64,000 nt of DNA. Source: Halapricum salinum. GTDB lineage: Archaea > Halobacteriota > Halobacteria > Halobacteriales > Haloarculaceae. The stretch spans positions 3,216,887 to 3,280,886 of the forward strand of contig NZ_CP031310.1 in NCBI RefSeq assembly GCF_004799665.1, in the 5' to 3' direction. Position numbers and translations under genes: made by a program. Shown one piece after another: positions 18,197 to 35,758 of this stretch (the stretch's first letter is position 1; each line of letters begins with the position of its first letter). Below the pieces are notes generated by a model, which was not told the DNA's origin, searched no databases, and saw only the letters and a list, made by a program, of their open reading frames with translations.

Positions 18197-18594
18197 TCTT
18201 CCACCAGCGTGTATCCCCCGTGACGGCCGCTGTAGCGGACGCGATTCTCGTCCTGGAGATCAGCAAGCGTGTCTTCGAGTCGGTCCTCTATTCGGTCGGT
18301 CAACGCTTCGAGCAGTTCGTCCCAGTCGAGATGCTGGTCTGTTTCGAGAACAGCCATGACACGCTCTCGGAGGTCTCCACCCGAGCCCTCCGTGTCGTCG
18401 TCCGGCTGTGCTTCGGCCGTGTCTGGCGGCGCATCGAGGAATCCACGTCGCCCCGCCTGAACCATCGCCTTGACGTACTCGCTCTGACTCATCCCGAGCT
18501 GGTCGGCGTGTTCCTGCCACTGTTCTTTCTGATAGGCCGGAAGATACGTCTTCACAGTCACCCGCGACGTGTCGACCTCACCATCGGCAACCAT
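18193..18594 (-). CDS. DUF5805-like integrase partner protein
   Basis: A 133-residue acidic protein. The N-terminal half (RVTVKTYLPAYQKEQWQEH, LGMSQSEYVKAMVQAGRRGF) looks like a ribbon-helix-helix-type DNA-binding unit. The C-terminal half (ELLEALTDRIEDRLEDTLADL to GRHGGYTLVEE) resembles a winged helix. Small proteins of this layout, which I associate with DUF5805, sit directly upstream of haloarchaeal integrases and may act as excision or regulatory factors (inference). Start taken at the Met of MVADGEVD. Two in-frame ATGs at 18624/18621 are alternatives but overlap an AT-rich promoter-like element. The stop overlaps the integrase ATG. Confidence 0.72.
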   Translation of the reverse strand: MVADGEVDTSRVTVKTYLPAYQKEQWQEHADQLGMSQSEYVKAMVQAGRRGFLDAPPDTAEAQPDDDTEGSGGDLRERVMAVLETDQHLDWDELLEALTDRIEDRLEDTLADLQDENRVRYSGRHGGYTLVEE

Positions 18595-18623
18595 GGTCGA
18601 CCGCTGAACCCCCACCCTCATCA

Positions 18624-18680
18624 ATTTATCCCTAGATTCGGTGATAAAGTCCCTTATTTGTGTTCGTGGTGCCCTATTTG
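18624..18680 (-). promoter_or_regulatory. Promoter and paired direct repeats upstream of the integrase operon
   Basis: On the minus strand this stretch holds two near-identical boxes, CAAATAGGG (18672-18680) and CAAATAAGGG (18651-18660), spaced about two helical turns. AT-rich elements ACTTTATC and GGGATAAATT follow, either of which could be the TATA box. Paired boxes next to a TATA element suggest a self-regulatory operator. Confidence 0.4.
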
Positions 18681-20562: not shown

Positions 20563-21153
20563 TCAGATCGACCGTACACTCAGTGCGTGAGCGGTCGCAC
20601 ACGCAGCGAAGGCCACGAGCACCACAAGGAGCATTGCTTGAGTGATTTGTGTCGACGTGGAGCCGGACACGTACGTGCCTGCGAGGGCAACGGTTCCGAG
20701 AGCGACGATCGCTGCATAGTACCCATACCAGGGTCGACCAGGCACGTGTTGACCGAGATATGGTTTCAGTTGTTCGGCGCTTTCTCTCAGTTCCATCACC
20801 CCCCTCGATTTGTTGAACGAGATGATTCCCATGTCGTCCAGCTTTGGAAGGTGGCACTGATAGAGTGCGACGTAGACTCGCTTTCGCTCGTCGTACGTAA
20901 TCTCCTGGATCGACTTGTCGTTTTCTTCAGCAGCGATACGCTCGGCAACATCACTGAGTTCTGTTCGGCCGTCTTGGGCCTCCAGATACTTGATAACTCG
21001 CCGACGTCGTTCGTTCTTCAGTGCTTCGAAGATGACGTCGACAGTCAATTCTTCGGTCGTTTCCTGATCGTCCTGGCCGAGTGGGTGAGCTGTCTCTGGA
21101 ACCGACACTGGTGGTGTCGTCGACGATGCGTCAGTCGTCGCAGTCTCACTCAT
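20563..21153 (-). CDS. DUF7344-type winged-helix protein with membrane anchor
   Basis: A 196-residue protein. After a Thr/Ser/Pro-rich leader comes the winged-helix segment VDVIFEALKNERRRRVIKYL, then LSDVAERIAAEEND and RKRVYVALYQCHLPKLDDMG. This is the pattern of the haloarchaeal DUF7344 family. The C-terminus has two hydrophobic helices (YYAAIVALGTVALAGTYV and AMLLVVLVAFAACATAHAL). A membrane-tethered DNA-binding regulator is likely (inference). The ATG at 21153 was chosen over one 21 bases upstream because the extra residues are basic and unlike the family. It is one of four related genes bracketing the fibre locus. Confidence 0.8.
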   Translation of the reverse strand: MSETATTDASSTTPPVSVPETAHPLGQDDQETTEELTVDVIFEALKNERRRRVIKYLEAQDGRTELSDVAERIAAEENDKSIQEITYDERKRVYVALYQCHLPKLDDMGIISFNKSRGVMELRESAEQLKPYLGQHVPGRPWYGYYAAIVALGTVALAGTYVSGSTSTQITQAMLLVVLVAFAACATAHALSVRSI

Positions 21154-21709
21154 GGGCCGCCACCTCGACAGCACGCCGTCGACGGTCAGGTCTATCGATG
21201 CCGGCTTTCCCCAGTGTACCGGAATGTGTCATGGTATCTACCGCCCCCATCCTATGAGGCGGTCTGAAGTTCACGCCCACCGATGCTGTAGCAAGTGGAT
21301 GAATAGCCAACGCTCTTATTAGTGTGTGTCAATCTCTCACTACCAGGGATAAGCACACAATACGCACGCACCCACCGCGAGTAAGAGTCGATTTAAGATC
21401 AGCTATCGCTACATCATGTTCCTACCCCTCAGTATCGTATCTTCCCCACGCACTGCCCGGTCGAGTGTGCTTTCAAGGGGGCTGCCTCGAGGATTATCCG
21501 TCGCTGGATCATTCATCGAACATGATTTGTCGGATCTACGAGAGAGTGGTCTGCGACCGATCGCCTCGAAGGTCTGCTGGTATAGCTGGAATAACCGAGA
21601 GGTAGGCGGCCAACGAGCTGGGTATGCTGATCGTAACAAAGTATGATCGGAACGCTAGTCTCAACCAGGTAACCCAGTACGGTTCGATCGAGTGGGTGCG
21701 GTATTACGA
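21154..21709 (+). other. Divergent intergenic region between two DUF7344 genes
   Basis: About 555 bases of mixed, fairly low-GC sequence. Short open frames on both strands lack acidic bias or domains. It must hold the promoters of both flanking regulators, but I see no convincing TATA box at the expected distance from either ATG. Confidence 0.5.
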
Positions 21710-22252
21710 ATGAGTGACTCAGATCAGGAACTTTCACGCAACGAAATCTTCGACCTCCTGAGCAACAGCCGACGTCGATACGTGCTATCGTACCTCACGA
21801 ACAATCCCGACGAGGTGACATTGCAGGACCTCTCTCGACAGATTGCGGCCTCGGAGAACGACTGTGACGTCGAAGACGTTACCCAGAAACAGCAAAAGCG
21901 GATATACGTCTCCCTCTATCAGACTCATATCCCACGCCTGAGTGAGGCAGGGGTACTCTCGCACGACGATTCGACTGGGCATCTCACGCTTCAGCGACGG
22001 GCAAACGAAATCGTGCCCTACCTCGAACGTGACAACACGACGCGGCGACCGTGGCACTGGTACTATCTCGCCGTCGTCGGGGCCAGTACCGTCGCATTCG
22101 TCGTGACCGTCTTGGACGCCGGCCCATTCGCCACCGTCAGCGACACGCTGGTCGTGATCGGAATCATTCTCGCATTTGCTTTGCTTACCATCGCCAAGAT
22201 ATACAGTCAGCGGTCAGTCGTTCGAAAACCACCTGGCCCACGCCGCCAGTAA
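21710..22252 (+). CDS. DUF7344-type winged-helix protein with membrane anchor
   Basis: A 180-residue homologue of the preceding regulator in divergent orientation. The DNA-binding part reads RNEIFDLLSNSRRRYVLSYL, then LQDLSRQIAASENDCDVEDV and QQKRIYVSLYQTHIPRLSEAG. Two C-terminal hydrophobic helices follow (WYYLAVVGASTVAFVVTVL and LVVIGIILAFALLTIAKIY). The start is the ATG of MSDSDQELS. Its 3' end overlaps the convergent STT3-like gene by 46 bases. Its position at the 3' end of the fibre operon suggests it may regulate that operon, though this is inference from position only. Confidence 0.8.
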   Translation: MSDSDQELSRNEIFDLLSNSRRRYVLSYLTNNPDEVTLQDLSRQIAASENDCDVEDVTQKQQKRIYVSLYQTHIPRLSEAGVLSHDDSTGHLTLQRRANEIVPYLERDNTTRRPWHWYYLAVVGASTVAFVVTVLDAGPFATVSDTLVVIGIILAFALLTIAKIYSQRSVVRKPPGPRRQ

Positions 22253-24354
22253 TCGACAGTGACTGTCTCGCCGGCGTCTATCGCGCTCTCTGGAACTCGA
22301 ACCGTCGTCTCACCGACCTCGTATCGGCCAGAATACGGCACTACGACCTCGAAGTTGCCGTCCTCGTCGGCTTCGATCCGACGTTCGTACGTGAAAGATG
22401 CGCCCGGTATCGATACCCGCGTAGTTAGCTCGATCGTCTGTCTGGCCGTAGCCACGCCCGTGAGCGTCGCTCCCTGGACGAGTTGGTAGACTTTCGGTCG
22501 TCCTGTATCTCCGACGTAGATCGCTCGATAGTGTTCGACACCGTCGACCCGTCCCGTCCGCGAGCCGTAGGTCTCGAAGAGTCGTTCGTACATCGAAGCT
22601 GCGTGCAAGTCTGAACTGAGATAATCAACGACGACGAACCCGACGCGGTCGTCGAGTCGTTCGTACCACTCACCTGGCTCGGAGGCCAGCAAGAAACGTA
22701 GATAGTTCTCGCGCGCAAATCGATAGGATCGAGCGTGGCCGTTGACCAAGTAGTTGTAGAACCGATTGTCGCCCCAGCGTGAGAAGACGTAATTCTCGGG
22801 CCAGGCGAGACGCTGTTGGTCGGCGTATGCTCCGAGCCAGTTGGCGGCGCGATACATCGACGGACGAACACGGACCCGCGAGTGCAGGGCTGCAGCATTG
22901 ACGGCCGGAAAGGCGACGAACGTCAGCGAGAGAGCACCGGTAGCCAGGAACCGACGACGGTCCGGAACGGCGAGAGAGGACGCCGATCGTCGCCCTCGAT
23001 CTGACGTGAGCGGCTGTCTCTCGACCGGGAGGGGTTGGAGATCCGCGATCTGGGTGAGAATCCAGACGAGCCCGTAACCACCGACGACCGCAACAAACGG
23101 GGCCAGTTCTCCCACGAATCGCCGTTGCACGAGCGCGAGCATGAGGAAGTAACAGACGTAAACGTCGAGGAGCAGCCACCCGATCGAGGGCTGTCGATAG
23201 CTTTGCCAGAGCGTCCACACGACCACGGGGAGCCCGATCGCACCAGCGAAGCCGAGCATGATTATCGGTCCGAGAACCGGACCGAACCCACCGCCGAGTG
23301 CCGTCGTCTCGGCGATGGTCGTCGACACGAACAATCGATCGAAACCAGCGTCGAGTGCGCCCGCGAACAGTGTCGACCGAGTCACAACGAAGGCGATAGC
23401 GACGACCCCGACGACTTCGAGAAGGAGAAGGGTGAGCGAACGACGGCCGTACTGCCGAACGATCGATGCGGCCGCGTAGAGGGCAATCGCCCCGAAAAAC
23501 AGGGCCAACGGGGTGGCGGCAGTTGCTGTCGATTGCCACCCCAGCCCGAGATGACCAAGGAGTGTCAACCCTGTCGCGGCTGCCAAACCTGTGACGACCG
23601 GGACGAGCCGAGACAGACAGTCGTCTCTGAGGAGAACCGGACCAGCGACGGCGATAGCGACTGCGAGGGGGACCAGCAGCAACGGACCAGCCTCCCACGC
23701 GAGCGTCTGAGCGGCAACCGACAGGCCGAGCAGGGCCGAGAACCACCATCGTCGGCGATCACCCTCGGGGGTCGTTACGGCACCGATCAGTCCGTAGAAC
23801 GTGAGTGTCAACCAGAGGTAATCGAACGCGTGATGGTCTGCGAATCCCAGGCCCGTCCGCAAGGCGTGTCCAGGGACGACTGCGAACAGTGCGAGTCCCG
23901 CGATTGCAACTCGCGCGTCCCCACTCACTCGCTTCCCGATCGCATAGACGACGACGCCACTCACTACCGCGGAAACGGGTGGATAAACCGCCAGGATCAC
24001 TCCGACAGCGGCGTCGCCCCCACCGAAGAGTGCCGCGATGAAGCCGAGGACGGCCACCAGTAACGGTTCACCACTTCCGATGTTCGAGTACGCGTCGACG
24101 GAGAACGGGGACGCCAATCGGGCAGTGATCGATTCTACTAGTGTCCGGTAGGCCCAGGGATCGTTGCCCGTCAGAATGACGTCCTCACCCCGAAAGACGT
24201 TCGGAAACGGCAGGAGCCGTACCAGTGCGACCATCGAGAGACCGGCTCCGACGACGAGCCACTCCGGGAGGACACGTTCACCTGCCAGGGATCGACTGGT
24301 ATCGGTTTCAGCGTCCGGATCTCGATTCATATCACTCAGTGAGATACTCGTCAC
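22207..24354 (-). CDS. STT3/AglB-like membrane protein without the WWDYG motif
   Basis: A 715-residue GT-C-fold protein related to archaeal oligosaccharyltransferases, which move lipid-linked glycans to Asn of exported proteins. About 12 helices span residues 30-490. The first external loop has VILTGNDPWAYR (Asp65, the DxD-like metal site) and a later loop GLGFADHHAFDYLW. The QRRF motif near 410 also fits. After the last helix, which starts RRRFLATGALSLTFVAF, the soluble domain has FSRWGDNRFYNYLVNG where true AglB has WWDYG. A beta-sandwich-like C-terminus follows. Acceptor recognition may therefore differ, or the protein may be inactive. It overlaps the zinc-ribbon gene by 4 bases, so it belongs to the signal-peptidase operon. 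Confidence 0.75.
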   Translation of the reverse strand: MTSISLSDMNRDPDAETDTSRSLAGERVLPEWLVVGAGLSMVALVRLLPFPNVFRGEDVILTGNDPWAYRTLVESITARLASPFSVDAYSNIGSGEPLLVAVLGFIAALFGGGDAAVGVILAVYPPVSAVVSGVVVYAIGKRVSGDARVAIAGLALFAVVPGHALRTGLGFADHHAFDYLWLTLTFYGLIGAVTTPEGDRRRWWFSALLGLSVAAQTLAWEAGPLLLVPLAVAIAVAGPVLLRDDCLSRLVPVVTGLAAATGLTLLGHLGLGWQSTATAATPLALFFGAIALYAAASIVRQYGRRSLTLLLLEVVGVVAIAFVVTRSTLFAGALDAGFDRLFVSTTIAETTALGGGFGPVLGPIIMLGFAGAIGLPVVVWTLWQSYRQPSIGWLLLDVYVCYFLMLALVQRRFVGELAPFVAVVGGYGLVWILTQIADLQPLPVERQPLTSDRGRRSASSLAVPDRRRFLATGALSLTFVAFPAVNAAALHSRVRVRPSMYRAANWLGAYADQQRLAWPENYVFSRWGDNRFYNYLVNGHARSYRFARENYLRFLLASEPGEWYERLDDRVGFVVVDYLSSDLHAASMYERLFETYGSRTGRVDGVEHYRAIYVGDTGRPKVYQLVQGATLTGVATARQTIELTTRVSIPGASFTYERRIEADEDGNFEVVVPYSGRYEVGETTVRVPESAIDAGETVTVDYWRRGPGGFRTTDR

Positions 24355-25226
24355 AGACTGGCCTGTAGCTCACTCGTCAGCTCGACTTCGAAGACACGAG
24401 CACCACAGACGTCACAACTGACTGCAGCGACGTCTACCGTTCGACAACACGATTCGACAGCTTCCTGCTCGACTGTCACTGACTGCCCACAGGCTGGACA
24501 CTGTTCGACGAACATGCGAAGCGCGTTCAGAATGCGACTCCGGTTCAGCACGTGCATCGACGACCACGATTCGTGGAAACCAGACAGCGTCCGATCAGCA
24601 GCGATATCCGCGACGATAGCCGCGGTCGACTCCCACTGGCCAGCCTGGTGTCCATCGATTCTGAGTACCGCAGCCTCGCCGTAGGTGGACAGTGATAGTC
24701 GATCCGGGTCCTCGACGTCGAGCAGGCTCGCGATTGTCGTCTCGTCGACCTGCCGTTCGTCCATCGTTTCGATTCGTGCGTGCCACTCCCGACCGAACGA
24801 AGGTTCGAGACAGAGGTCGTCCACGCGGGGACACGCAGAGAGGACGCCAAGTCGCTGGAGGGAATCTTCGACGTCCAGGAGTTCGATCTCGTCGGCATCC
24901 GAGGGAGTCGACGGCGTCTTCTCGAACCACGCGAGGACTGGCTCTGGGAGGTATCGCTTCGTCAGCGTCGGCGTGTACGGAATCAGGTAGCCGCGTAGAT
25001 AGATCGCCATCGAACCGACGAGGACGACGACGAACCCGAGACCGACCGCCGACGCTAGCGTACTCCCGCCGAACAAGAGTCCGAGCGCTATCGCCACGGC
25101 GAGTGAAACGGTGAGAACTCCGTTCACGATCGTACAGGGCACACAGCGATTGTCACCAACGTATTCGGGTTGGCGAAATCGGTCGACGATCGAACCGCCG
25201 ACGTTCAGCAGCGACGACGAACCCAT
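24351..25226 (-). CDS. Membrane protein with CxxC pair and C-terminal zinc ribbon
   Basis: A 291-residue unknown. Near the N-terminus is NRCVPCTIVNG (Cys28/Cys31). Two hydrophobic helices follow (VLTVSLAVAIALGLLFGG and ASAVGLGFVVVLVGSMAIYL), then a long acidic soluble region. The C-terminus has a zinc-ribbon-like set: CPACGQ, CCRTV and CDVCGA. The CxxC beside a membrane helix recalls thiol-redox proteins, but no thioredoxin fold is evident. The ATG at 25226 lies one base after the peptidase stop, and its stop overlaps the STT3-like start. It is therefore fixed in a peptidase/unknown/STT3 operon and probably acts on the same secreted clients (inference). Confidence 0.7.
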   Translation of the reverse strand: MGSSSLLNVGGSIVDRFRQPEYVGDNRCVPCTIVNGVLTVSLAVAIALGLLFGGSTLASAVGLGFVVVLVGSMAIYLRGYLIPYTPTLTKRYLPEPVLAWFEKTPSTPSDADEIELLDVEDSLQRLGVLSACPRVDDLCLEPSFGREWHARIETMDERQVDETTIASLLDVEDPDRLSLSTYGEAAVLRIDGHQAGQWESTAAIVADIAADRTLSGFHESWSSMHVLNRSRILNALRMFVEQCPACGQSVTVEQEAVESCCRTVDVAAVSCDVCGARVFEVELTSELQASL

Positions 25227-25227
25227 T

Positions 25228-26025
25228 TCACAGTTCCCCCCGTTCGACGTCGTCTTCGGACTCTCTGTCTTCCATCTCGTCGAATGCGATCCACTCTTGA
25301 AAGTCCGCGCCCGACGCTGCAGCGTTGGAATCATCTTCGATTGGCCTGTCGGCAGTCTCCGACCAGTTCTCCTCGAAGACGGAGCTCACCGCTACAGACG
25401 AGAGTTCGAAATCGACCACAGTGGCTTCGTCGTCGCTGGAGATTTCAGGAGCCGTCTCGTCATTCGGAGTCGATCGTTCGCCATGGTCTTCGGCATCTTC
25501 GTCGGGTCGCGATCCGAAGTACGCCACAGCGAGTTCCCACGATTCGCTCACGATCAATAGTGAGAGCGGCGTCAACACGAAGAAGATGATCCCCAGGTCA
25601 GTCTGCAAGAACGTGATCAGGACCCCGATTAGCGGAACCGAAAACAGCACTTCACCGACGTAGGCACGGGGTGGGACCAGATATGGATCTGGCTCCTCGT
25701 TGGCGATACCTTGCGTCTGAAAGAGTGTCTGATTGTCTTCTTCGACGATGTCGACGACCTTGTGCGTCGTCGTCCCTGTGCTGTCTGGAGTGTGATACGT
25801 TATCGTGTCGTTGATCTGGACGTGGTCAGGCGAATTCTGGTGGACGAAAACGACGTCACCGGAGTGGAATTCCGGCATCATACTGTTCGAGAGGACCACG
25901 TAGCCGCCGTAGAACGGGACGAACTGACCGATCACGTACAGCAGCAGTGGAATTACGACGATGAGGACAAGACAGATGGCGATTATCTGCACGACCCGCC
26001 GGCCCGACGGTCGCTCGATCGTCAT
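25228..26025 (-). CDS. SipW-like signal peptidase I
   Basis: A 265-residue membrane serine protease of the archaeal/Sec11/SipW type. Helix 1 is residues 11-33. The nucleophile Ser48 lies in VLSNSMMPEFHSGDVVFV, and the general base His88 in TTTHKVVDIVEED. The next box reads TQGIANEEPDPYLVP. Family members usually have GDAN, so the first acidic residue is Ile107 here, while Asp113 is kept. A second helix pair (LIGVLITFL, GIIFFVLTPLSLLIV) and an unusual acidic tail of about 100 residues follow. It is embedded among TasA-like genes, as sipW is beside tasA in Bacillus, which points to those proteins as substrates. Confidence 0.88.
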   Translation of the reverse strand: MTIERPSGRRVVQIIAICLVLIVVIPLLLYVIGQFVPFYGGYVVLSNSMMPEFHSGDVVFVHQNSPDHVQINDTITYHTPDSTGTTTHKVVDIVEEDNQTLFQTQGIANEEPDPYLVPPRAYVGEVLFSVPLIGVLITFLQTDLGIIFFVLTPLSLLIVSESWELAVAYFGSRPDEDAEDHGERSTPNDETAPEISSDDEATVVDFELSSVAVSSVFEENWSETADRPIEDDSNAAASGADFQEWIAFDEMEDRESEDDVERGEL

Positions 26026-26089
26026 GGCGTTGCCCCACTCTGATAGTGTTCATCGAACGATGCAGGAAGCCGGGTATCGAATGCGTACT

Positions 26090-26404
26090 TCATGGTCGAT
26101 GGTATCGTGGTTCTGCAGCGGCCGGAGTCTCGACGACTCCAGACAGGAGTTTCATCGTACAGTCCTGATCGGAATTGCCGACACCACAGGATCCGTCGGA
26201 ATTGCCCCCGGAATCCGTGTTTCCGGCCGAGGCGAGGACGTCGTTGGTGACGGTGTTTCCGGCACCGAACTCCGAGTCAGTCTCCAATGATATGCTCGAA
26301 CGCTCGGCGTCCTGGAAGGCGCCGAAAGTGAAGCCACTGCCGAAGAGGACGACGACTGCGAGCGTCAGCGCGAGGAGTTTCAGCGACTCCGACCGAACCA
26401 TCAC
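26090..26404 (-). CDS. Small secreted protein with SipW-type leader
   Basis: A 104-residue protein with a basic start (MVRSESLK), one hydrophobic stretch (LLALTLAVVVLFGSGFTFGAF) and then FQDAERSSISLETDSEFGAG. This resembles the leader and first mature strand of TasA/CalY-type proteins. The mature part is short, with CGVGNSDQDC forming a possible disulphide. It could be a minor or initiating subunit (inference). Two adjacent ATGs can start it. It overlaps the upstream gene by 4 bases and precedes the signal peptidase by 64 bases. Confidence 0.65.
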   Translation of the reverse strand: MMVRSESLKLLALTLAVVVLFGSGFTFGAFQDAERSSISLETDSEFGAGNTVTNDVLASAGNTDSGGNSDGSCGVGNSDQDCTMKLLSGVVETPAAAEPRYHRP

Positions 26405-27636
26405 TGTTCACCCCCGCACGTGTTCTCACAGACTGCTTCCCAGGTCTCCTCACCGAATTCGAACTTCACGCCACACCCGCTCGGGTCCTCCTCTGATGGA
26501 TTCGGGCATGGATCTCTGGGGCACTGTCCGTACGCTGTCGCGTCCTGGCCACCGTCCCAGAGCCGTTTAGAATCGTAGTACGGATTGGTCGGCGTATCAT
26601 CGCTGGCACTGTTGACGTGGACGCTTCCGGCAGTTTCCTGGCCGGCGTAGTGAAAGTTTTCGAAGAACTTGCCCTGGCTGGAGCCGTAATACAGTACTAT
26701 CCACTCCGGTGGCACGTCGCTACTCCAGTCGAGTTTGAATGGATTCCCGTCGGTGTCGTAGTACGGCGTGAACCTGACGTCTCCAGGCGCAATGGTTCCG
26801 TCTTCGATACAGAACGCGACGAAACTGATCTCCTGAAACTCACACGGCGGACAGTCCTCGGTACAGTCGACGGAGCAGTCGTCTTCCCACCCCGGTGGTC
26901 GCGTTGGATCGGGGTCGTGTCGCCACTGCTCGGCGAACAGATCGACGTCGATCGTCAGTGAATCGCCGGTGATGCACGGATCGACGATCGAGAACTCGAA
27001 TCCGAGACAGCAGGTGTCTCCTGGCTGGAGTGGGGCAGGTTCCTCGGTGGTCGGATCCCGGTCGAGAAGCACCCCCTCCCGAAGCGTCGTCAGGACGTCA
27101 CAGAGGCGACCGGACGCGATCACCCGGCCGGAATCGACGACGCCATCACACTGCTCGTCGTACCAGACCGTCAGTTCGATGCCGCGCTCGAGGCCACACC
27201 CGTCTTCGGGACAGCTCGTGCGCAACCACAGCCAGGCCGGATTGTCAGAGAGTGCACAGCGGAGCGTCGCCTGCTGTGTCCCCCCGTTCGAGAGATCATC
27301 GAGGGAGAGTGATGCAGAATCGGCGTTCGGATCACAGGTCTCGCCTGGCTGTTCCAAACAGGTCGTCAGATCGAGCTCACCCGCCTGGACGACGTTCGGT
27401 TCGAGTGAGCCCCACGATTCCAGATCCCAGAACCCGCCGGACGGAGACCCGGAGCTTGAACTCGGGAGCGGCCCGGTCGTGGTCGACGTTTCGTCACCGT
27501 CGAACGCGACAGCGAGTGCCCCACCTCCAATCGCGCCTAGCCCCCCGATTGTTCCGAGCCCGGAGAGGATCGTTCGGCGAGAGACACGCTCTCGACGCCC
27601 ACCTTCTGTATCCCCGTCGCCGTTATCTGCTGGCAC
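26401..27636 (-). CDS. Cys-rich TasA/CalY-like secreted protein with Tat-type leader
   Basis: A 411-residue exported protein. The leader RRERVSRRTILSGLGTIGGL has a twin-arginine and glycine-rich core. The mature start EPNVVQAGELDLTTCLEQPG has the (N)xxxAGxLDL motif of TasA/camelysin subunits. A strand IELTVWYDEQCDG aligns with LQVVIWYDDGDN of the other paralogues. At least 18 Cys occur, in clusters such as CCLGFEF and DCTEDCPPCEF, suggesting disulphide stabilisation. A C-terminal extension (about residues 275-411) is extra to the scaffold and not recognised. It is the first gene of the operon running to the STT3-like gene. Confidence 0.72.
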   Translation of the reverse strand: MPADNGDGDTEGGRRERVSRRTILSGLGTIGGLGAIGGGALAVAFDGDETSTTTGPLPSSSSGSPSGGFWDLESWGSLEPNVVQAGELDLTTCLEQPGETCDPNADSASLSLDDLSNGGTQQATLRCALSDNPAWLWLRTSCPEDGCGLERGIELTVWYDEQCDGVVDSGRVIASGRLCDVLTTLREGVLLDRDPTTEEPAPLQPGDTCCLGFEFSIVDPCITGDSLTIDVDLFAEQWRHDPDPTRPPGWEDDCSVDCTEDCPPCEFQEISFVAFCIEDGTIAPGDVRFTPYYDTDGNPFKLDWSSDVPPEWIVLYYGSSQGKFFENFHYAGQETAGSVHVNSASDDTPTNPYYDSKRLWDGGQDATAYGQCPRDPCPNPSEEDPSGCGVKFEFGEETWEAVCENTCGGEQ

Positions 27637-27759
27637 TGAAATTTCCTCCGTTGAATCGCCGGCCGTGTCCAGTCATGCGTCGCACGCCCCCGTAAGTACT
27701 CGTTGGTTTACACAGCTCTATGACCTGTTTAGGAGGTCTTTACTCCCCTCCTGGACGTC

Positions 27760-28506
27760 TCAGTTCGAACATGATTCAGCCCGAAATCCGATCTGGAAGT
27801 CGACGCTGTCTGTCTGTGCGAGTACCGGATCGGTCGTTCCAGGATCGAACGACCACTCGATGCCGATGCAGAGTTGTTCATCCTGGCCGACACAGGAGTC
27901 ACCGTCTACGCCGGGTGTCGCGTCGAGCGGCGTCCAGGTCGAGAGCACGTCGGCGACATCGGCGAGCGATCCCGCTGCCACCAGTGTCTCACCGGGATCG
28001 AAATCCCCGTCACAGCGACCAGCAAACTCCGTATCACCGATCATGATGCCAACGTCGTACCAGACGCGTAGCTGGATGAGGTTCTGTAGCTCTCCCTGGT
28101 CGACACTCGTATCTCCAGCCATCTGCTCGGGTTCGGTGATACCGTTCTCGTCGTACGAACTGACTGGGGCGACCAGCTGCATCGAGAGCTGAGCGGCGTC
28201 GAGAGTACTCTGCTCGCCGAGGGCGAGTCCGAAGTGCAGTCGGCCCGAATCCCCTGGCAGCACGTTCCGAAGGTCGACGAGCGGCCCGTTCACGTCGACG
28301 GGCGAGGCCTGGTCCTCGAGTTTCGTGTCGTTGTACCACTCCGCCCAGTTCACGAGGAGTTCGACATCCGATTGCTGGACGAGAAACTGCTGATTGTGGT
28401 CGACTTCCCCCGAGTCGATCGTGAGATACGCACCAGTCGTCGCCACGACAGCACCGAAGCTCCCCGTCGCGAGAAACCGTCGTCGTGAGAGGTCGTTCAG
28501 ATTCAT
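27760..28506 (-). CDS. TasA/CalY-like secreted protein with Tat-type leader
   Basis: A 248-residue exported protein. Its leader is LSRRRFLATGSFGAVVATTG. The mature part shares landmarks with the larger paralogues: NGITEPEQ, LIQLRVWYDVG, CIGIEWSFDPG and the terminal QTDSVDFQIGFRAESCSN. It lacks the WDEEKFGN start motif and has fewer Cys than the preceding gene. A single beta-sandwich domain of about 200 residues is likely. It is transcribed in the same direction as its neighbours but separated by gaps of 123 and 312 bases, so it may have its own promoter. Confidence 0.7.
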   Translation of the reverse strand: MNLNDLSRRRFLATGSFGAVVATTGAYLTIDSGEVDHNQQFLVQQSDVELLVNWAEWYNDTKLEDQASPVDVNGPLVDLRNVLPGDSGRLHFGLALGEQSTLDAAQLSMQLVAPVSSYDENGITEPEQMAGDTSVDQGELQNLIQLRVWYDVGIMIGDTEFAGRCDGDFDPGETLVAAGSLADVADVLSTWTPLDATPGVDGDSCVGQDEQLCIGIEWSFDPGTTDPVLAQTDSVDFQIGFRAESCSN

Positions 28507-28818
28507 GGCTGGTCAATAGCGTCGTCGTGAATCGGTCGCCACCGGCTCGTCGATTCTCGTAAGGATATACCAAGAGTGTCCATAGTTATCCGCCGATTAC
28601 AGCGGTGACAACCACCGGAAGACAATCGATACCCAATCGATCGGTTCGAAGTGATTCTGGGAACGTCTCCATAGCTACGCCGATCGATCGCACTGCCGGG
28701 TCGTGGTTCCGATGTGTTCGTATCCACACACTCTCCGGCGTCGAACGGAACGATCGCGCGGTCGAAGTTGACGCCGAGTCCAAGGGCGAGGACCACGGAC
28801 TCGGGCCTTCCCGGCGAC
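28507..28818 (-). other. Intergenic gap with likely promoter for the gene at 27760-28506
   Basis: 312 bases without a convincing gene. On the minus strand GGTATATCC (28563-28571) lies about 60 bases before the ATG at 28506, the best TATA candidate, implying a leader of about 30 bases. The far half, towards 28818, is GC-rich and featureless. Confidence 0.4.
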
Positions 28819-30747
28819 TCACTCTGGTGTCGGAGTATCACCACCCGGTGACTGGGCGTTGTTCTCGGCGTCTGCTTCGCCGAGCGTGCCGGCCATCGGT
28901 GCACCGTCGTTGCCGACGTTGTGACGGCACTGGATGGCGTCGAAGCCGAACTGGAACGCCAGCCGGTCGGTCTGGATCACGTTGTCGTTGACGCCGGGAA
29001 TGTCCGTGGGCACCCAGCACAGAACTCCAATATACTCGGTGTCGGAGTTCTGATAACAGTAGGTTCCCTGGAAGTCCGTCGCGACGCTCCCAGCGAGCGA
29101 GTCCTGGGCGTTGAACAGGACGTCCGTGCCGTCCATCTCCGCGACAGTGCCAGCGAAGACCGCCGCGTCGGTATCGACGATGTCGCTGGGCTGTTGGGCC
29201 ATCCCGATCTCCATGACGTAGTCTTCTTTCGTCGCGTCGTCGAGTTCGTCGTCTGGCGAGTCCTCCGTCCCGTCGGGCAGTTCGGTCTCGCCGGTCCAGA
29301 TCTCACCGGGGATGTTGTCCCCGTCGTCGTACCAGATGACGCAGTTCATCACGTCGTCGAGTTCGCCGTCGTCGGTCTCTTCGGCGGGCGGGACGGTCGA
29401 GAAGCTTTCTCCCTCTATCAAGACCCAGGAGTCCAGCGAGTTATCGCTCGCGTCGGCGATGGCGAGCTTCAGCGTGTTCGTCTCACCGGGATTGACCTGT
29501 CCACTAACATCCAGGACGACGGTGAGTCCGTCCATCTGGGTGTCCAGACTGCCGTCGGTGTTGTCGATGTAGAGGTCCGAGTTCTCTCCGTTGTTGATCG
29601 AGTTGATCGTCACTGGCTGCGTCCCGTCAGTCGGATCGTCGACCGTCGCGACGTTCGTCCCGTTGACGAAGAACCCGAACACGTCCTCGAAGTTGGACCC
29701 GACGAACTCGTTGTACTCCTCGGAGCCGAAGACGTAGCTGAAGAACACCTCTTCGGCGTCGTTCGGGACTTCGAACTCGATCTCGAGGATGCACTGGTCG
29801 TACATCCCGAAGCTCGAGAGCGACGCGAGGTCCGGGTCGTCTGCCGGCTCTGTATCGACTGAATTTACGGTCAGGTTTGTATCGTCGTTCGGGCCTTCGA
29901 CGTCGAACGCGTACCCGGAGCTGAGGATGATTCCCTCGTCGATTCCGATCGCGTCTGCGCCGTCGGTGAACGTCCCTGCAGATTGTTCAGCACCCTGATA
30001 GGTGACGTTGGTGACCGTGATATCACCCGCACCAGAGACCAGCGTGTCAGCCAGATCCTGTGGCGTCAGACTCCCGGCGAGCGTGTCGGTGACTGTCGGA
30101 CTGGCGGCCGCAGCACTGCCGGTCGCCGCACCGAGGCCGACGAGCCCCGCAGCACCGAGAGCCGCACCCTTGAACACCTGTCGTGCCGAGAGGGTGCTGT
30201 CGTCCTCCTCGTCCTGCAGGCGCCGCCTGAGCGCGTCACCCAGAAGGCCTGCTGCCCCGAGACCGAGTCCCGCAGCGTACGGATCGCCGTCGGACTGGTC
30301 GGGCGTGTGGCCGTTGACCTTGTCCTCGGGTTCGGTGATCCCGTTGTCTTCGTCGGCGTGTTCCTGATAGTGCCACCCCAGGAACGCGGGGTTGCCGTAG
30401 ACGTGCGCCGACAGGGTCGCTTCCATGACGTCGCCGGGTTTGACGTCCGTCAGGTCGATGATCGGTCCTGGCTGGTCGACCATATCCGGTTCGCCGTCTT
30501 CGTTCGTGTCGCTGATCGCGATCAGCTCGTCGGTGCTGTCGATCCAGTCGTAGTACCGAACTTCCCAGTCGACGCCCAGATCCAGCTCGCCACCCTGCAG
30601 GACGTTCGGATCGGACTCGTTGCCGAACTTCTCTTCGTCCCACAGCAGCGACGTCGTCGTCGCGCCGCCGATGAGACCGGCGCCGCCCATGACTCCCAGA
30701 CCGCCGAGGATCTTGCGCCGTGAGAGTCCGTTGCTGTCGTCAGTCAT
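28819..30747 (-). CDS. TasA-like surface protein with inserted choice-of-anchor-L domain
   Basis: A 642-residue exported protein. The leader LSRRKILGGLGVMGGAGLIG is followed by TTSLLWDEEKFGN and VLQGGELDLGVDW, the scaffold start. The scaffold runs to about residue 154 (NGHTPDQSDG) and resumes near 460 with GELDDVMNCVIWYDDGDN. It ends IPGVNDNVIQTDRLAFQFGF and QCRHNVGNDG. The insert (about 155-457) begins with an Arg-containing hydrophobic stretch (SARQVFKGAALGAAGLVGLG to SAAAAS) that looks like a former signal peptide. It continues as a choice-of-anchor-L domain (FGSEEYNEFVGSNFEDVFGF). The function is probably adhesion or display on a fibre. The start overlaps the vWA paralogue's stop by 8 bases. 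Confidence 0.78.
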   Translation of the reverse strand: MTDDSNGLSRRKILGGLGVMGGAGLIGGATTTSLLWDEEKFGNESDPNVLQGGELDLGVDWEVRYYDWIDSTDELIAISDTNEDGEPDMVDQPGPIIDLTDVKPGDVMEATLSAHVYGNPAFLGWHYQEHADEDNGITEPEDKVNGHTPDQSDGDPYAAGLGLGAAGLLGDALRRRLQDEEDDSTLSARQVFKGAALGAAGLVGLGAATGSAAAASPTVTDTLAGSLTPQDLADTLVSGAGDITVTNVTYQGAEQSAGTFTDGADAIGIDEGIILSSGYAFDVEGPNDDTNLTVNSVDTEPADDPDLASLSSFGMYDQCILEIEFEVPNDAEEVFFSYVFGSEEYNEFVGSNFEDVFGFFVNGTNVATVDDPTDGTQPVTINSINNGENSDLYIDNTDGSLDTQMDGLTVVLDVSGQVNPGETNTLKLAIADASDNSLDSWVLIEGESFSTVPPAEETDDGELDDVMNCVIWYDDGDNIPGEIWTGETELPDGTEDSPDDELDDATKEDYVMEIGMAQQPSDIVDTDAAVFAGTVAEMDGTDVLFNAQDSLAGSVATDFQGTYCYQNSDTEYIGVLCWVPTDIPGVNDNVIQTDRLAFQFGFDAIQCRHNVGNDGAPMAGTLGEADAENNAQSPGGDTPTPE

Positions 30748-32674
30748 CGTTGGCGTAGTGCTGAGCGTTGTTTTCGGCGTCGGCTCCCGGGAGCGTCTGG
30801 ACCGGCATTCCGTCCTCGTTGGTGTTGTGGCGACACTGGACGGCCTCGAAGCTCACCTGGAACTCCAGCCGGTCGGTCTGGACGATGTTGTCGTTGACGC
30901 CCGGGATGTCGTAGGGGAGCCACCACTCCATCGCGACACAGCCGGTGTTCGACGGCGCCTGACAGTACTGGCCGAACTGCTCGGCGGCAGCGATGCCAGT
31001 CGCGTCCGGTCTGAGGAGCACGCAGTCTTCGAGACCGTTCCAGTCGCCCTCTTGCTGTCCGCCGATCAGTTCGTTGATCGGCATCGGGCCAGCGATGATC
31101 TCTTCGCCACCGGCGGAGCTACAGACCACTGTCTGGACCGTCTCGATGGCATCTCCGAGTTCGCTGTAGTTGGCTGCGAACAGCGGGTTGAGACCCTCAG
31201 TCGCCAGGGCGTTGGCGTAGTCGACGTCGTCACCGCTCGGATCGGCGTTGACGATCACTGGCAGAATGTCGACACTGTCCAGTTGTGCGTCGTCGGCGGT
31301 CTGCTGTGCCTCTGCCAGAGTCGTCTCACCGGGTTTGCCGTCAGTGAAGACGACGATGAGCTTGCGGACCTCTCCCGGGAATGCGGCGTTCCCACTGGGA
31401 TCGATTCCCTCTTTGCCGCTGCTCGCGCTGACGAACGCGTCGGGCAGCAACGCGCGGTGAGCCCGCTCGATGCCGGCCGGGACCGCCGTCCCACCGTCCT
31501 CCGTGTACGGGCGCTCGGCCTCGTACTCGTTTCCGCCGGTGTTGTTGACGGGGTCTTCGGTGACGAAGTCGGGACTGAAGTCCGTGTCCGGCCCAAAGAG
31601 GTTCTTGAGGTCCTCGTAGTCGGCCGCAGTGTTGCCATCGTCGTCGCCGGCGTTCGCGGCCGTGAGCGCGCGGTCGAGGTTGGCGTCGAGACCGCCGTCG
31701 TCGAAGCCGACCTGCGTGCCGTCGTCGTCGTCGCCGTCGTCGAGGTTGTCCAGGTGGTGCAGGTTGACCGCCGTGCTCACGCTTCCGACCTCGATGTTTC
31801 CACCGCCACAGCTGGCGATCTCCGAAAGAAGGTCGACGTCCGAGCCGAGCGCCGGGTGATCACCCATGTGGGCCTTGATCGCTTCGAGGCGGGTGTTGTC
31901 CCCGGCCTGGTTCGCGTCACCGGGATTGTCGTCGACGTCGGGCGTGCCGGAGAACGGCTCCCCCATCGACTCGGAGACGTCGGTCACGAACATGACCTCG
32001 ATCTCCCCGCCCTGATGGAGATTGTCGCAGTTGCGGTCGTAGAACAGCTTGGCCTGGATGTGGTCTCCCAGGTCGCCGCCCTCGGTGCCGTCAGACTCGT
32101 CGGGCGTGTGGCCGTTGACTTTGTCTTCGGGTTCGGTCAGCCCGTTGTCTACATCTGCGTGGACTTCCCCACACATCGAGACGAATCCGGGGTTGCCGAA
32201 GAGGTGGTAACTGAACGTCACCTCACCGAAGTCGCCCGGTTTGACGTCTTCGAGTGTGACGACCGGGTCGGGCTGGTCGTTCGGGCTATCTGGCCCGGCT
32301 TCTTCTTTGACGAGGTCCTGTTCTTCGATAATCGTGTCCAGCCAGAGAGCGTTGAAGTCTTCCTGGGGGACGGCGATCATCGGATTGTTCGGGGGGAGGT
32401 AGGCCTCTCCTTCCTGCAGGTCATCGAGACTGTCGATACGCCGGACGTCGTACTCTGTCTCCGCACCGAGCCAGTCGACGTAGTGTTCTTCCCAGTCGAC
32501 CGCGAGGTCGAGTGCACCGGCCTGCAAGACGTTGGGATTCGACGCGTTGCCGAACTTCTCTTCGTCCCACAGCAGCGACGTCGTCGCTGCACCACCGAAC
32601 GCGCCGGCCGCACCGATGGTGCCGAGCCCACCGAGTAGCTTCCTGCGCGAAAGGTTTGATTTGTCGTCGCTCAT
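30740..32674 (-). CDS. TasA-like surface protein with inserted von Willebrand A domain
   Basis: A 644-residue exported protein with the same scaffold ends as its neighbours: LSRRKLLGGLGTIGAAGAFG, SLLWDEEKFGN, VLQAGALDLAVDW at the start and IPGVNDNIVQTDRLEFQVSF near the end. After the strand IQAKLFYDRNCDNLHQGGE the scaffold is interrupted by a vWA domain (about residues 225-518). The metal-ion-dependent adhesion site is intact: DVSES at 232-236 and FTDGKPG at 443-449. This gives a metal-dependent ligand-binding head (inference: adhesion). The insertion lies just after the strand that follows the insertion point in the choice-of-anchor-L paralogue. It lies between the other two paralogues, 20 bases after the plain one. 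Confidence 0.8.
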   Translation of the reverse strand: MSDDKSNLSRRKLLGGLGTIGAAGAFGGAATTSLLWDEEKFGNASNPNVLQAGALDLAVDWEEHYVDWLGAETEYDVRRIDSLDDLQEGEAYLPPNNPMIAVPQEDFNALWLDTIIEEQDLVKEEAGPDSPNDQPDPVVTLEDVKPGDFGEVTFSYHLFGNPGFVSMCGEVHADVDNGLTEPEDKVNGHTPDESDGTEGGDLGDHIQAKLFYDRNCDNLHQGGEIEVMFVTDVSESMGEPFSGTPDVDDNPGDANQAGDNTRLEAIKAHMGDHPALGSDVDLLSEIASCGGGNIEVGSVSTAVNLHHLDNLDDGDDDDGTQVGFDDGGLDANLDRALTAANAGDDDGNTAADYEDLKNLFGPDTDFSPDFVTEDPVNNTGGNEYEAERPYTEDGGTAVPAGIERAHRALLPDAFVSASSGKEGIDPSGNAAFPGEVRKLIVVFTDGKPGETTLAEAQQTADDAQLDSVDILPVIVNADPSGDDVDYANALATEGLNPLFAANYSELGDAIETVQTVVCSSAGGEEIIAGPMPINELIGGQQEGDWNGLEDCVLLRPDATGIAAAEQFGQYCQAPSNTGCVAMEWWLPYDIPGVNDNIVQTDRLEFQVSFEAVQCRHNTNEDGMPVQTLPGADAENNAQHYANDD

Positions 32675-32694
32675 TGTCCTATCCCGTCACCCCG

Positions 32695-33720
32695 TTAGGT
32701 CGGGTCCGGGGTAGTCGTGCCACCCTCGGGCGAGTTCGCGTTGTTCTCGGCGTCGGCGTCCGCGATGGTGTCGTCCATCGGGAGACCGTCGTTGCCGACG
32801 TTGTGGCGGCACTGGATGGCGTCGAAGCCGAACTGGAACTCCAGGCGGTCGGTCTGGACGATGTTGTCGTTGACCCCGGGGATGTCCGTCGGCAGCCACA
32901 CCAGTACCGCGATGTATTCTGTGACCGAGTTCTGGTAACACGCGGTGTCGGGGAACTCTTCGGCGACGGCTCCCGAGTTCGAATCGCGGGCGTCGAAGCG
33001 AACGTTCGCCCCGTCGAGACCGGCCAGGTTGCCGGCGTAGACGACTGGGTCTGCCCCACCGAAGGCATCGGCTGCGCTCTGTATGGAAGCGACGTCCATC
33101 ACGTACTCTTCTTCATCGATAACGAGTTCATCTCCCTCATTACCGTCTCCATCGGTAATATCCGGGAGTACCTCGTCCGGGAGGTTGTCGCCGTCGTCGT
33201 ACCAGATGACGACCTGCAAGTACTCGTCGAGGTCCCCGTCTTCCGTCCCGTCGGACTGGTCTGGGTCGTGGCCGTTGACCTTGTCCTCTGGTTCGGTGAT
33301 TCCGTTGTCGGTGTCGGCGTGCTCCTCGTAGTGCCATCCCAGGAACGCGGGGTTCCCGAAGATGTGCGCACTCTGGGTGACCTCGAGCACGTCGCCGGGC
33401 TTGACGTCCTGGAGATTGATGATGGGCCCTGGCTGGTCGACGAGGTTCGGGCCCTCTTCGACGACGACTGCCGGGTCCTCGACGTCGTTACTGCTGAACG
33501 TCGGGTTGTCGATCCAGTTGTAGTACGTCCCTTCCCAGTCGACTTTGAGATCCAGTTCCCCTGCCTGCAACACGTTCGGGTTGTCCGCGTTACCGAATTT
33601 TTCTTCGTCCCACAGCAGCGAGGTCGTCGCTGCGCCACCGAGCGCCCCGGCGCCGCCGATAACGGCGGCTGTGCCGAGGAGCTTTCGTCGTGAAAGCGGT
33701 AGTTTGCTATCTTCTGACAT
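32695..33720 (-). CDS. TasA-like surface protein, plain scaffold
   Basis: A 341-residue exported protein that shows the scaffold without insert. It has LSRRKLLGTAAVIGGAGALG (twin Arg at 11-12), then SLLWDEEKFGN and VLQAGELDLKVDW (51-63), VKPGDVLEVTQSAHIFGNPAF, NGITEPEDKVNGHDPDQSDG and the strand LQVVIWYDDGDN (168-179). It ends with CYQNSVTEYIAVLVWLP and IPGVNDNIVQTDRLEFQFGF. Its simplicity and first position make it the best candidate for the main filament subunit (inference). The ATG at 33720 starts the normal leader; a Met 27 bases upstream is less likely. Confidence 0.78.
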   Translation of the reverse strand: MSEDSKLPLSRRKLLGTAAVIGGAGALGGAATTSLLWDEEKFGNADNPNVLQAGELDLKVDWEGTYYNWIDNPTFSSNDVEDPAVVVEEGPNLVDQPGPIINLQDVKPGDVLEVTQSAHIFGNPAFLGWHYEEHADTDNGITEPEDKVNGHDPDQSDGTEDGDLDEYLQVVIWYDDGDNLPDEVLPDITDGDGNEGDELVIDEEEYVMDVASIQSAADAFGGADPVVYAGNLAGLDGANVRFDARDSNSGAVAEEFPDTACYQNSVTEYIAVLVWLPTDIPGVNDNIVQTDRLEFQFGFDAIQCRHNVGNDGLPMDDTIADADAENNANSPEGGTTTPDPT

Positions 33721-34065
33721 TGTCTTTCCTCGATTGTTGACGGTCACGGTGGGCCCCCACTATCCCAGGCGCCACCCCGCGACCTGTGAAAACAATGCAC
33801 AATGACTTCCGTAGTTGTAAACTGCCTATCAAATTTAGCCTGGCCGAGTCGAGGCTTACGACGGCCGTTCGACCGGGTTCTGGCGTGGTAAACGAATGTT
33901 ACGGACCTGTCTCGACAACCGATAGCCTCGCAAGTGAACGCGTCTGATACGAGTTCGAAGACCACTGCGTAGGGGCAGTTTCTCGGTCTTCAGTCGCAGG
34001 TAGACGGTTTCTACCGAGAGTAGTCAGTGGCAAACTAAGTGACTCCCACGGCAGTATTACGCTCA
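33721..34065 (+). promoter_or_regulatory. Divergent control region of the surface-protein operon and a DUF7344 gene
   Basis: 345 bases with no gene. For the minus-strand operon there are AT-rich elements (AAATTTGATAGG-like sequence near 33820-33840 and AGTTTACAAC near 33815) that would leave a leader of about 80-100 bases. For the plus-strand regulator, CAAACTAAG (34031-34039) lies at about -30 of the ATG at 34066. The divergent arrangement suits control of the operon by the regulator. Confidence 0.4.
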
Positions 34066-34644
34066 ATGCCACGGATCGGTTCAGCGCGCTGGACCTCGCT
34101 CCCGTCCATCCGGTCTCGCTCAGAGGCCCTCTCCAGAGAGACGGTGTTCGAGATGCTGAAGAACACCCGGCGGCGGTACGTATTTCACATCCTCAGCCAG
34201 CGAGCCGAGCCGATCACACTGGCGGCGCTGAGCGAGGAGGTGGCTGCCCTGGAATACGATACCGAAGTCGAGGACCTGGACGGCGATCAACGCCAGCGAA
34301 TCTACGTCTCACTCCGGCAGACACATCTGCCGCGGCTCGACGAGGCGAACGTCGTCGACTTCGACGCCGAGGCGAATACGGTCGCACTGGCCGAGAACGC
34401 GTCCGACCTGCAGGTATATCTCGAGACAGTCCCGGACGACGATATCCTCTGGGCACAATTCTATCTCGGGCTGGCGGGGGTCGGCGTCGGACTCCTCCTG
34501 TTTCTCTGGCTCGGCGTCCCGCCCCTTTCGACGTACCCCACACTCGTCGGGACCGTCATGCTTGCCGTCCTCGGTGGGTCGGCAGTCGTCCACCATCGCC
34601 ATCTCCAGCGACGGCGGCTCGGAACGGGTGAGTCACCGATATGA
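34066..34644 (+). CDS. DUF7344-type winged-helix protein with membrane anchor
   Basis: A 192-residue homologue of the two regulators near 21 kb. Its core is SRETVFEMLKNTRRRYVFHI, LAALSEEVAALEYDTEVEDL and RQRIYVSLRQTHLPRLDEAN. Two C-terminal helices follow (YLGLAGVGVGLLLFLWLG and LVGTVMLAVLGGSAVV) and a His/Arg-rich end. It is divergent from the surface-protein operon with a shared 345-base control region. A GTG 27 bases upstream is an alternative start. Probably a membrane-bound transcription regulator (inference). Confidence 0.8.
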   Translation: MPRIGSARWTSLPSIRSRSEALSRETVFEMLKNTRRRYVFHILSQRAEPITLAALSEEVAALEYDTEVEDLDGDQRQRIYVSLRQTHLPRLDEANVVDFDAEANTVALAENASDLQVYLETVPDDDILWAQFYLGLAGVGVGLLLFLWLGVPPLSTYPTLVGTVMLAVLGGSAVVHHRHLQRRRLGTGESPI

Positions 34645-34675: not shown

Positions 34676-35758
34676 GTGATCGTGGCCCAGAGCGTCCCCG
34701 ATGGCCACGCCGACGACGAGACGGACGTCGAGACGGACAGCGTCGTCTCGCGAGACGACCTATTCGAGATGCTCGGTAACGACCGACGGCGTCGTGCGCT
34801 GGAGATCGTCATGGAGCGCGAGGGCGGTGTATCCGTTACCGAACTCGTCGAAGAAGTCGCCGCGCAGGAATACGACAAACCGGTCGATGAACTCAGTCGA
34901 TCCGAACGGAAAGCTGTCTATACGGCAGTCGTCCAGCGACACTTGCCGAAACTCGAGGATCGCGGTCTCATCGCACGCGATCACGAGGCCGGTGAAGTGG
35001 TTCCATCGGAGACGCTCGTGGACCTGAACATCTACTTCGAGATTTCCGGCGACGGTCGGTTCCCGTTCAGCGTCTACTACGTCGGACTCTCGGGACTGGG
35101 AATCGTCCTGCTACTGGCTGCTTCGTTCGGCCTCGAGCCGGTCGATGCGTTCTCGCCTGTGACCTGGTTGTCAATCACACTGGGAATACTCGGCGTGACA
35201 GCGCTGGTTCACCTCCACCGGATGCGACGGATGCGTGTCGACCCGACGGGGAGCGAGGATGTCGAGAAGGAAACAGACGATCGAGTCGTGCTGTCGGTGT
35301 TGGCGTCGGGAATCGCAGCGACTGCCGGCGGCCTCGTCGGGGGGGCAGCGATGTGGGTAATCCTCCACCACGTCATGTTCTTCACTCCGGTGATCATGGC
35401 CGTCTACGGGTTCGAGACGAGTGACCCCACGATCCTCGCCCACCTCGGTCACAGTCTCGTCTTCGCGGCGGTGTTCGCTGCACTACTCACCCGAGAGCAG
35501 TTTCGGCTCGTCTCACAGACGGTCGGGGAGACAGTCGCGCTGGGGATGCTGTACGGTGTCGGCCTCTGGTTCGTGGCCGAAGGGGTCGTCGTTCCGGCCA
35601 TCTCGGGCGTGGTGCTGGCGACGCAGTTCGAGGTCTTCGGAGTCGACGTGCTCTATCTGCCACTGGACGGGCTCTCAGCCCACGTGATATTCGGGGCACT
35701 GCTCGGCGGCGTCTACACGTACACGCGCCAGAGGCTCGAAGGATCGATCGAGGGCTAG
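34676..35758 (+). CDS. DUF7344-type winged-helix protein with multi-span membrane domain
   Basis: A 360-residue regulator-like protein 31 bases after the previous one. The winged-helix region is SRDDLFEMLGNDRRRRALEI, VTELVEEVAAQEYD and RKAVYTAVVQRHLPKLEDRG. Instead of the usual two helices it has two and then, after a charged linker, about four more (VLSVLASGIAATAGGLVGGA, LGHSLVFAAVFAALL, LGMLYGVGLWFVAEGVVVP, VIFGALLGGVYTY). The extra membrane domain may be a sensor. The start is a GTG; exact position uncertain. The stop overlaps the convergent protease gene by 4 bases. Confidence 0.75.
   Translation: MIVAQSVPDGHADDETDVETDSVVSRDDLFEMLGNDRRRRALEIVMEREGGVSVTELVEEVAAQEYDKPVDELSRSERKAVYTAVVQRHLPKLEDRGLIARDHEAGEVVPSETLVDLNIYFEISGDGRFPFSVYYVGLSGLGIVLLLAASFGLEPVDAFSPVTWLSITLGILGVTALVHLHRMRRMRVDPTGSEDVEKETDDRVVLSVLASGIAATAGGLVGGAAMWVILHHVMFFTPVIMAVYGFETSDPTILAHLGHSLVFAAVFAALLTREQFRLVSQTVGETVALGMLYGVGLWFVAEGVVVPAISGVVLATQFEVFGVDVLYLPLDGLSAHVIFGALLGGVYTYTRQRLEGSIEG

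Follow-up and report, generated by a model that had tools for sequence, protein, structure and literature searches.

The nine genes between positions 22207 and 33747 of the 64,000-nucleotide stretch of the Halapricum salinum genome analysed here (the window; contig NZ_CP031310.1, positions 3,216,887 to 3,280,886) probably make, by analogy with characterised fibre systems, a TasA-type extracellular filament. All nine lie on the minus strand and form two runs with a gap of 313 bp between them, and inside each run neighbours either overlap or are separated by 21-124 bp. The first run consists of three TasA-like subunits (T350, T644 and T642, in that order) and the second of two accessory subunits (T248 and T411) followed by a small secreted protein, a signal peptidase, a zinc-ribbon membrane protein and an STT3-like protein (Table 1). 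The genes that an initial annotation had listed for a TasA-like surface-fibre locus were all found where it had placed them, on one strand and in two runs. The (N)xxxAGxLDL motif that it had ascribed to the subunits is present in T350, T644, T642 and T411; it is missing from T248, which nonetheless has the TasA fold.

The array subunits are homologues of TasA by fold and by sequence. In structure comparisons TasA was the best match to the AlphaFold models of both T350 (Z 10.2 over 143 residues, root-mean-square deviation 3.2) and T248 (Z 9.1 over 146 residues, root-mean-square deviation 3.3), with the three TasA entries at ranks 1-3 for each model and unrelated jelly-rolls about 2-3 Z units lower. 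Foldseek also returned the TasA fibre as the top match to the T350 model (E 1.8e-4). The AbpA pilus (7ueg) matched more weakly than TasA (Z 6.7 against the T248 model; Foldseek E 0.0067 against T350). At the level of sequence, residues 48-240 of a phylum-wide profile (A5), which includes compact relatives from the H. salinum genome and non-haloarchaeal members of the phylum, align to residues 12-205 of TasA (5of1) with an E-value of 0.0013, the sole credible match among the PDB sequences. A search of the PDB with a haloarchaea-only profile (A1) gave no TasA match, and the window subunits scanned singly against Pfam matched neither TasA nor camelysin; the homology is visible only once relatives or the phylum-wide profile are added. 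The TasA model NF046066 is matched in 6 of 18 family members (best E 1.2e-8) and the camelysin model PF12389 in 39 of 43 relatives, above its curated cut-off in several. The model of the SipW-dependent signal, TIGR04088, is matched in 40 of 43 relatives (E 0.1) and in 17 of 18 members of a second set, and several members scanned one by one exceed its curated cut-off. The N-terminal FxD...AGxLDL segment is conserved through the family. The TasA relationship proposed by the initial annotation is borne out by the predicted folds, the full-length profile match and the SipW-signal and camelysin models; structure prediction, one of the checks it had called for, placed TasA first, and the unrelated fold that it had named as decisive against the idea was not what emerged.

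Of 195 haloarchaeal genomes searched with the family profile, 61 hold homologues (53 of the 143 good genomes), and the family extends into other orders of the phylum. Across 29 fetched haloarchaeal loci, 124 of 125 core genes lie on their array's own strand, and a common set recurs: a DUF7344 regulator, several TasA-like subunits, two accessory families and a signal peptidase. Both the spread of the family and this shared strand lie far above chance. The T248 family is present in 15 of the 29 arrays and the T411 family in 18, and a divergent DUF7344 gene accompanies 26. The peptidase gene lies at most 3 kb from the array end in 20 of the 29 loci, and several of the others end at the edge of the fetched stretch. 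The whole 3.45-Mb genome of H. salinum, a single contig, holds four matches to TIGR02228, three of them above cut-off; against four matches in this genome, proximity in 20 of 29 loci puts the linkage of array and peptidase far above chance. This recurrence provides the conserved synteny that the initial annotation had wanted to see in relatives, and its view of the SipW-like peptidase as dedicated to the array holds as well, the two being co-encoded in many genomes. In many related arrays an analogous secreted protein comes after the peptidase gene.

Export of the haloarchaeal subunits appears to follow the twin-arginine translocation (Tat) route. An arginine pair (RR) stands at the Tat position in 81 of 82 haloarchaeal subunits, T350 scores above the cut-off of the Tat signal model TIGR01409, and the Sec-type export of Bacillus TasA is a feature that these subunits do not share. 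Close full-length relatives from outside the haloarchaea (L236 and L237), and the more distant L238, carry plain hydrophobic signals of Sec type without the arginine pair. The simplest reading of these signals is that the haloarchaeal lineage shifted the TasA family to Tat. Tat export would imply that monomers pass the membrane already folded and self-complemented, with strand exchange coming afterwards. The peptidase belongs to the archaeal signal peptidase I family (TIGR02228, 88 bits against a cut-off of 51.85) and matches the SipW model NF046067 with an E-value of 2e-19, its 69.8 bits lying below the equivalog cut-off of 190. In an alignment of about 20 homologues the nucleophilic Ser (SxSMxP), the His (THR/K) and the second Asp (PD) are conserved; the window copy, alone among clear homologues, has Ile in place of the first Asp in the GDxN box.

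Related arrangements were also seen. Elsewhere in the H. salinum genome a compact operon (G000:C1:2655340-2657250; L234:5341-7250) encodes two TasA-like proteins of about 200 residues followed by a SipW-like peptidase. Its TasA-like proteins have Tat-type signals and a size near that of classical sipW-tasA, and a similar operon is found in L239. The non-haloarchaeal arrays (L236:6752-11589 and L237:5496-10317) each combine TasA-like proteins bearing Sec-type signals with two SipW-like peptidases.

Many of the subunits carry large insertions, and most of these occur at one place. Internal inserts of at least 50 residues are present in 56 of 104 subunits. Profile positions 170-179, directly after one strand, take up 80 of the 103 such inserts, the same break being seen in the split matches of the genome profile search. 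These counts come from alignment to the model, which can place an insert one strand off, as happened with T642; the large inserts of T644 lie at profile positions 172-177. A count based on domain splits of the hidden Markov model was dropped as it under-counted the inserts (4 of 104). The domain-bearing subunits of the initial annotation are supported, with a von Willebrand A domain in T644 and a choice-of-anchor L domain in T642 (NF038133, E 1.1e-64). The T642 insert opens with a signal-peptide-like stretch (residues ~180-222; TIGR02811 at residues 180-221), as if, judging from its sequence, a pilin-like gene had taken in an entire secreted protein. Among 144 other genomes this insert has one weak match (E 2e-11 in G124). 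T644 and T642 are 51% and 59% identical to T350, against which subunits from other genomes reach no more than 38%, so the set expanded through local duplication.

The STT3-like protein resembles the oligosaccharyltransferase-type protein AglB in its STT3 and AglB_L1 domains (PF02516 and PF18079, both above cut-off) and, aligned with true AglB, in keeping the NDP, DHH and IxE motifs, which we take from established AglB work to be its metal-binding and catalytic positions. It differs from AglB in that WWDYG and the following segment are gone, which is true of the whole STT3-like family, RWGDN occupying the place of WWDYG in the window copy; four true AglBs from Halapricum do have the WWDYG sequon-binding motif. 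The H. salinum genome encodes a true AglB elsewhere (with WWDYG and above the TIGR04154 cut-off) and three STT3-like paralogues including the window copy. We rejected an identification of the window protein as AglB on the score to TIGR04154 (145.6 bits against a cut-off of 450), the missing WWDYG, its separate clade and the presence of the true AglB. STT3-like genes often neighbour a gene of 430-480 amino acids (L075, L078, L084, L085, L228, L230 and L231), and the one in L228 encodes a sugar transferase of bacterial type (PF02397); this pairing, as read from the sequences, suggests that the two may belong to a second surface glycan pathway.

It is conceivable, if unlikely, that the STT3-like gene and the zinc-ribbon gene have nothing to do with the array beside them and that their operon-like order is accidental. 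The STT3-like gene is missing from 27 of the 29 relatives' arrays, and the zinc-ribbon family occurs in 165 of 195 genomes, many of them without arrays, and adjoins 8 of the 29 other arrays. However, the six array-linked STT3-like copies (window, G003, G047, G355, G411 and G413), which come from several genera, form one clade (SH-aLRT 98), and an earlier tree had already grouped the window, G003 and G047 copies with clade support of 96/99. Three of the six (G355, G411 and G413) were picked by STT3-like similarity, and their array linkage was seen only afterwards. The STT3-like family is present in 114 of 195 genomes. Among 80 other STT3-like loci, all from named species, there is not one that is flanked by a TasA-type array. 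The zinc-ribbon gene also keeps company with the STT3-like gene, lying directly before it in the window and directly after it in L228 and L229. One STT3-like branch is tied to arrays in a minority of lineages and is not a core component. The initial annotation had the STT3-like protein decorating the filament, and this part of its reading is weak and too confident: the gene is missing in most arrays, WWDYG is lost and T350 has no N-glycosylation sequon, although the array-linked copies do form one clade. Sequon counts were rejected as a sign of subunit glycosylation, given their absence from T350 and an equal density in STT3-linked and unlinked arrays (7.23 versus 7.25 per 1000 residues). We tentatively raise the possibility that an STT3-like lineage with the catalytic motifs but no WWDYG sequon pocket has specialised in glycosylating a TasA-type filament exported by Tat, as the enzyme dedicated to it, and uses a non-classical acceptor site.

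The subunits might instead be camelysin- or TasA-like secreted proteins that remain monomeric or singly attached to the surface, as enzymes or adhesins, and form no filament. PF12389 carries the name camelysin metallo-endopeptidase, and monomeric TasA is known to be stable through self-complementation (PMC9674648). We consider this improbable, as no metalloprotease motif was noticed in the subunits, and tandem paralogous subunits with a conserved FxD...AGxLDL segment and accessory TasA-fold proteins fit a pattern of major and minor pilins. That the array builds a sheath, S-layer adjunct or matrix coat, with the inserted domains forming a decorated layer and no discrete fibres, would suit the several highly acidic, multi-domain secreted proteins of each locus but is very improbable given that the nearest solved relatives, TasA (8aur) and AbpA (7ueg), are filaments. 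Several observations do weigh against a TasA-type filament. The AlphaFold models of T350 and T248 are of medium confidence (mean predicted local distance difference test scores of 66.6 and 71.7), with the N-terminal donor segment poorly modelled, and T350, as an exception in the family, gives no match to the SipW-signal model TIGR04088. The distribution is also patchy: the array is missing from many haloarchaea, three of the six Halapricum genomes among them, and is therefore not essential.

Filament formation and donor-strand exchange are inferred from TasA, whose donor-strand chemistry has been described (PMC9674648), and from AbpA. In such a scheme the subunits would fold and self-complement in the cytoplasm and then exit via Tat. 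Cleavage by the local SipW-like peptidase would free the N-terminal donor strand (the F/LxD...AGxLDL segment), and polymerisation by donor-strand exchange would follow outside the cell, as it does for TasA of Bacillus and AbpA of Pyrobaculum. The fibre shaft would consist of minimal subunits of the T350 type, the von Willebrand A and anchor-domain subunits would be displayed on it as adhesive subunits, and T248 and T411 may serve as fibre start, cap or anchor. The DUF7344 proteins would control array expression. In the minority of lineages that have it, the STT3-like protein may transfer a glycan onto an acceptor other than the classical sequon.

Table 1. Genes of the TasA-like array and adjoining DUF7344 genes (window coordinates)
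Feature	Coordinates	Strand	Basis
DUF7344 putative winged-helix regulator	20563..21174	-	PF24035 1.3e-28
DUF7344 putative regulator, convergent with STT3-like gene	21692..22252	+	PF24035 1.9e-27
STT3-like AglB paralogue without WWDYG	22207..24354	-	PF02516 and PF18079 above cut-off
Membrane zinc-ribbon protein	24351..25334 (start likelier near 25226)	-	weak zinc-ribbon matches
SipW-like archaeal/ER-type (endoplasmic reticulum) signal peptidase I	25228..26025	-	TIGR02228, NF046067
Small secreted protein, Sec-type signal	26090..26404	-	sequence; 4-bp overlap with T411
T411, divergent accessory subunit, Tat-type signal, AGELDL	26401..27636	-	conserved family alignment
T248, TasA-fold accessory subunit without AGxLDL segment	27760..28506	-	model against TasA, Z 9.1
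T642, TasA-like subunit with choice-of-anchor L domain inserted after buried signal-like stretch	28819..30747	-	NF038133
T644, TasA-like subunit with inserted von Willebrand A domain (DVSES, like a metal-ion-dependent adhesion site, MIDAS)	30740..32674	-	weak Pfam VWA match
T350, minimal TasA-like subunit, Tat-type signal	32695..33747	-	Z 10.2 to TasA; TIGR01409
DUF7344 putative regulator, divergent from array	34039..34644	+	PF24035 match at G000:3251033
DUF7344 fused to membrane domain	34676..35758	+	PF24035 2.6e-21

The start of the zinc-ribbon gene at 25334 is that of the longest open reading frame and probably lies too far upstream. Four of the five DUF7344 genes in the whole H. salinum genome flank the array. 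The fifth lies with a third SipW-like peptidase and four secreted proteins that share a GAFTSVSA-like signal end, in a locus at L235:4387-14887 (G000:C1 near 300-309 kb). DUF7344 may be a regulator family of SipW-type secretion loci. The array is adjoined by a gene for a 901-residue Tat-type subtilase with repeated fibronectin-like C-terminal repeats (35755-38460), and a subtilase gene stands beside the array in locus L033 as well. A small partner gene accompanies a tyrosine recombinase upstream of the array at 17150-18624, and dips in GC content at 18-22 kb and 38-40 kb flank it on both sides in an island-like fashion.

The array shares with the tapA-sipW-tasA operon of Bacillus subtilis, the source of TasA biofilm fibres, the subunit fold, full-length sequence similarity, the SipW-type processing segment, a dedicated peptidase and accessory subunits. 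It differs in having Tat-type rather than Sec-type signals, several paralogous subunits, large inserts in one loop, DUF7344 regulators and, in some lineages, zinc-ribbon and STT3-like genes. No TapA was recognised in the array, and T248 and T411 are candidate nucleators by position and fold alone. The AbpA bundling pili of Pyrobaculum calidifontis, judged by the structure searches, may belong to the same fold class. The Sulfolobus thread filament (Saci_0406, 7pnb) gave a marginal structural match to T350 (Foldseek E 0.14); threads are made of beta-rich secreted subunits with a signal peptidase I, and their glycosylation by AglB has been proposed (PMC9715654). The array is like the thread in its beta-rich secreted subunits and signal peptidase I, whereas the thread uses the Sec route and has isopeptide bonds. 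The kind of protein is known, databases labelling such proteins 'SipW-dependent-type signal peptide-containing'. A literature search for TasA or SipW in haloarchaea, with most subscription journals outside its reach, returned nothing relevant and no description of such a haloarchaeal filament, and as far as we have checked the system is undescribed. The Tat signals, the insertion hot spot and the DUF7344 regulators are newly seen beyond the initial annotation.

Overall these results would extend TasA-type fibres to a broad range of haloarchaea, and they raise the testable question of whether a donor-strand fibre can be built from subunits that are exported by Tat already folded. They also draw attention to a branch of STT3-like enzymes that has gone unstudied, and they mark DUF7344 as the likely regulator family for such loci. 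Display engineering could make use of the filament fold, whose insertion loop naturally takes up whole domains.

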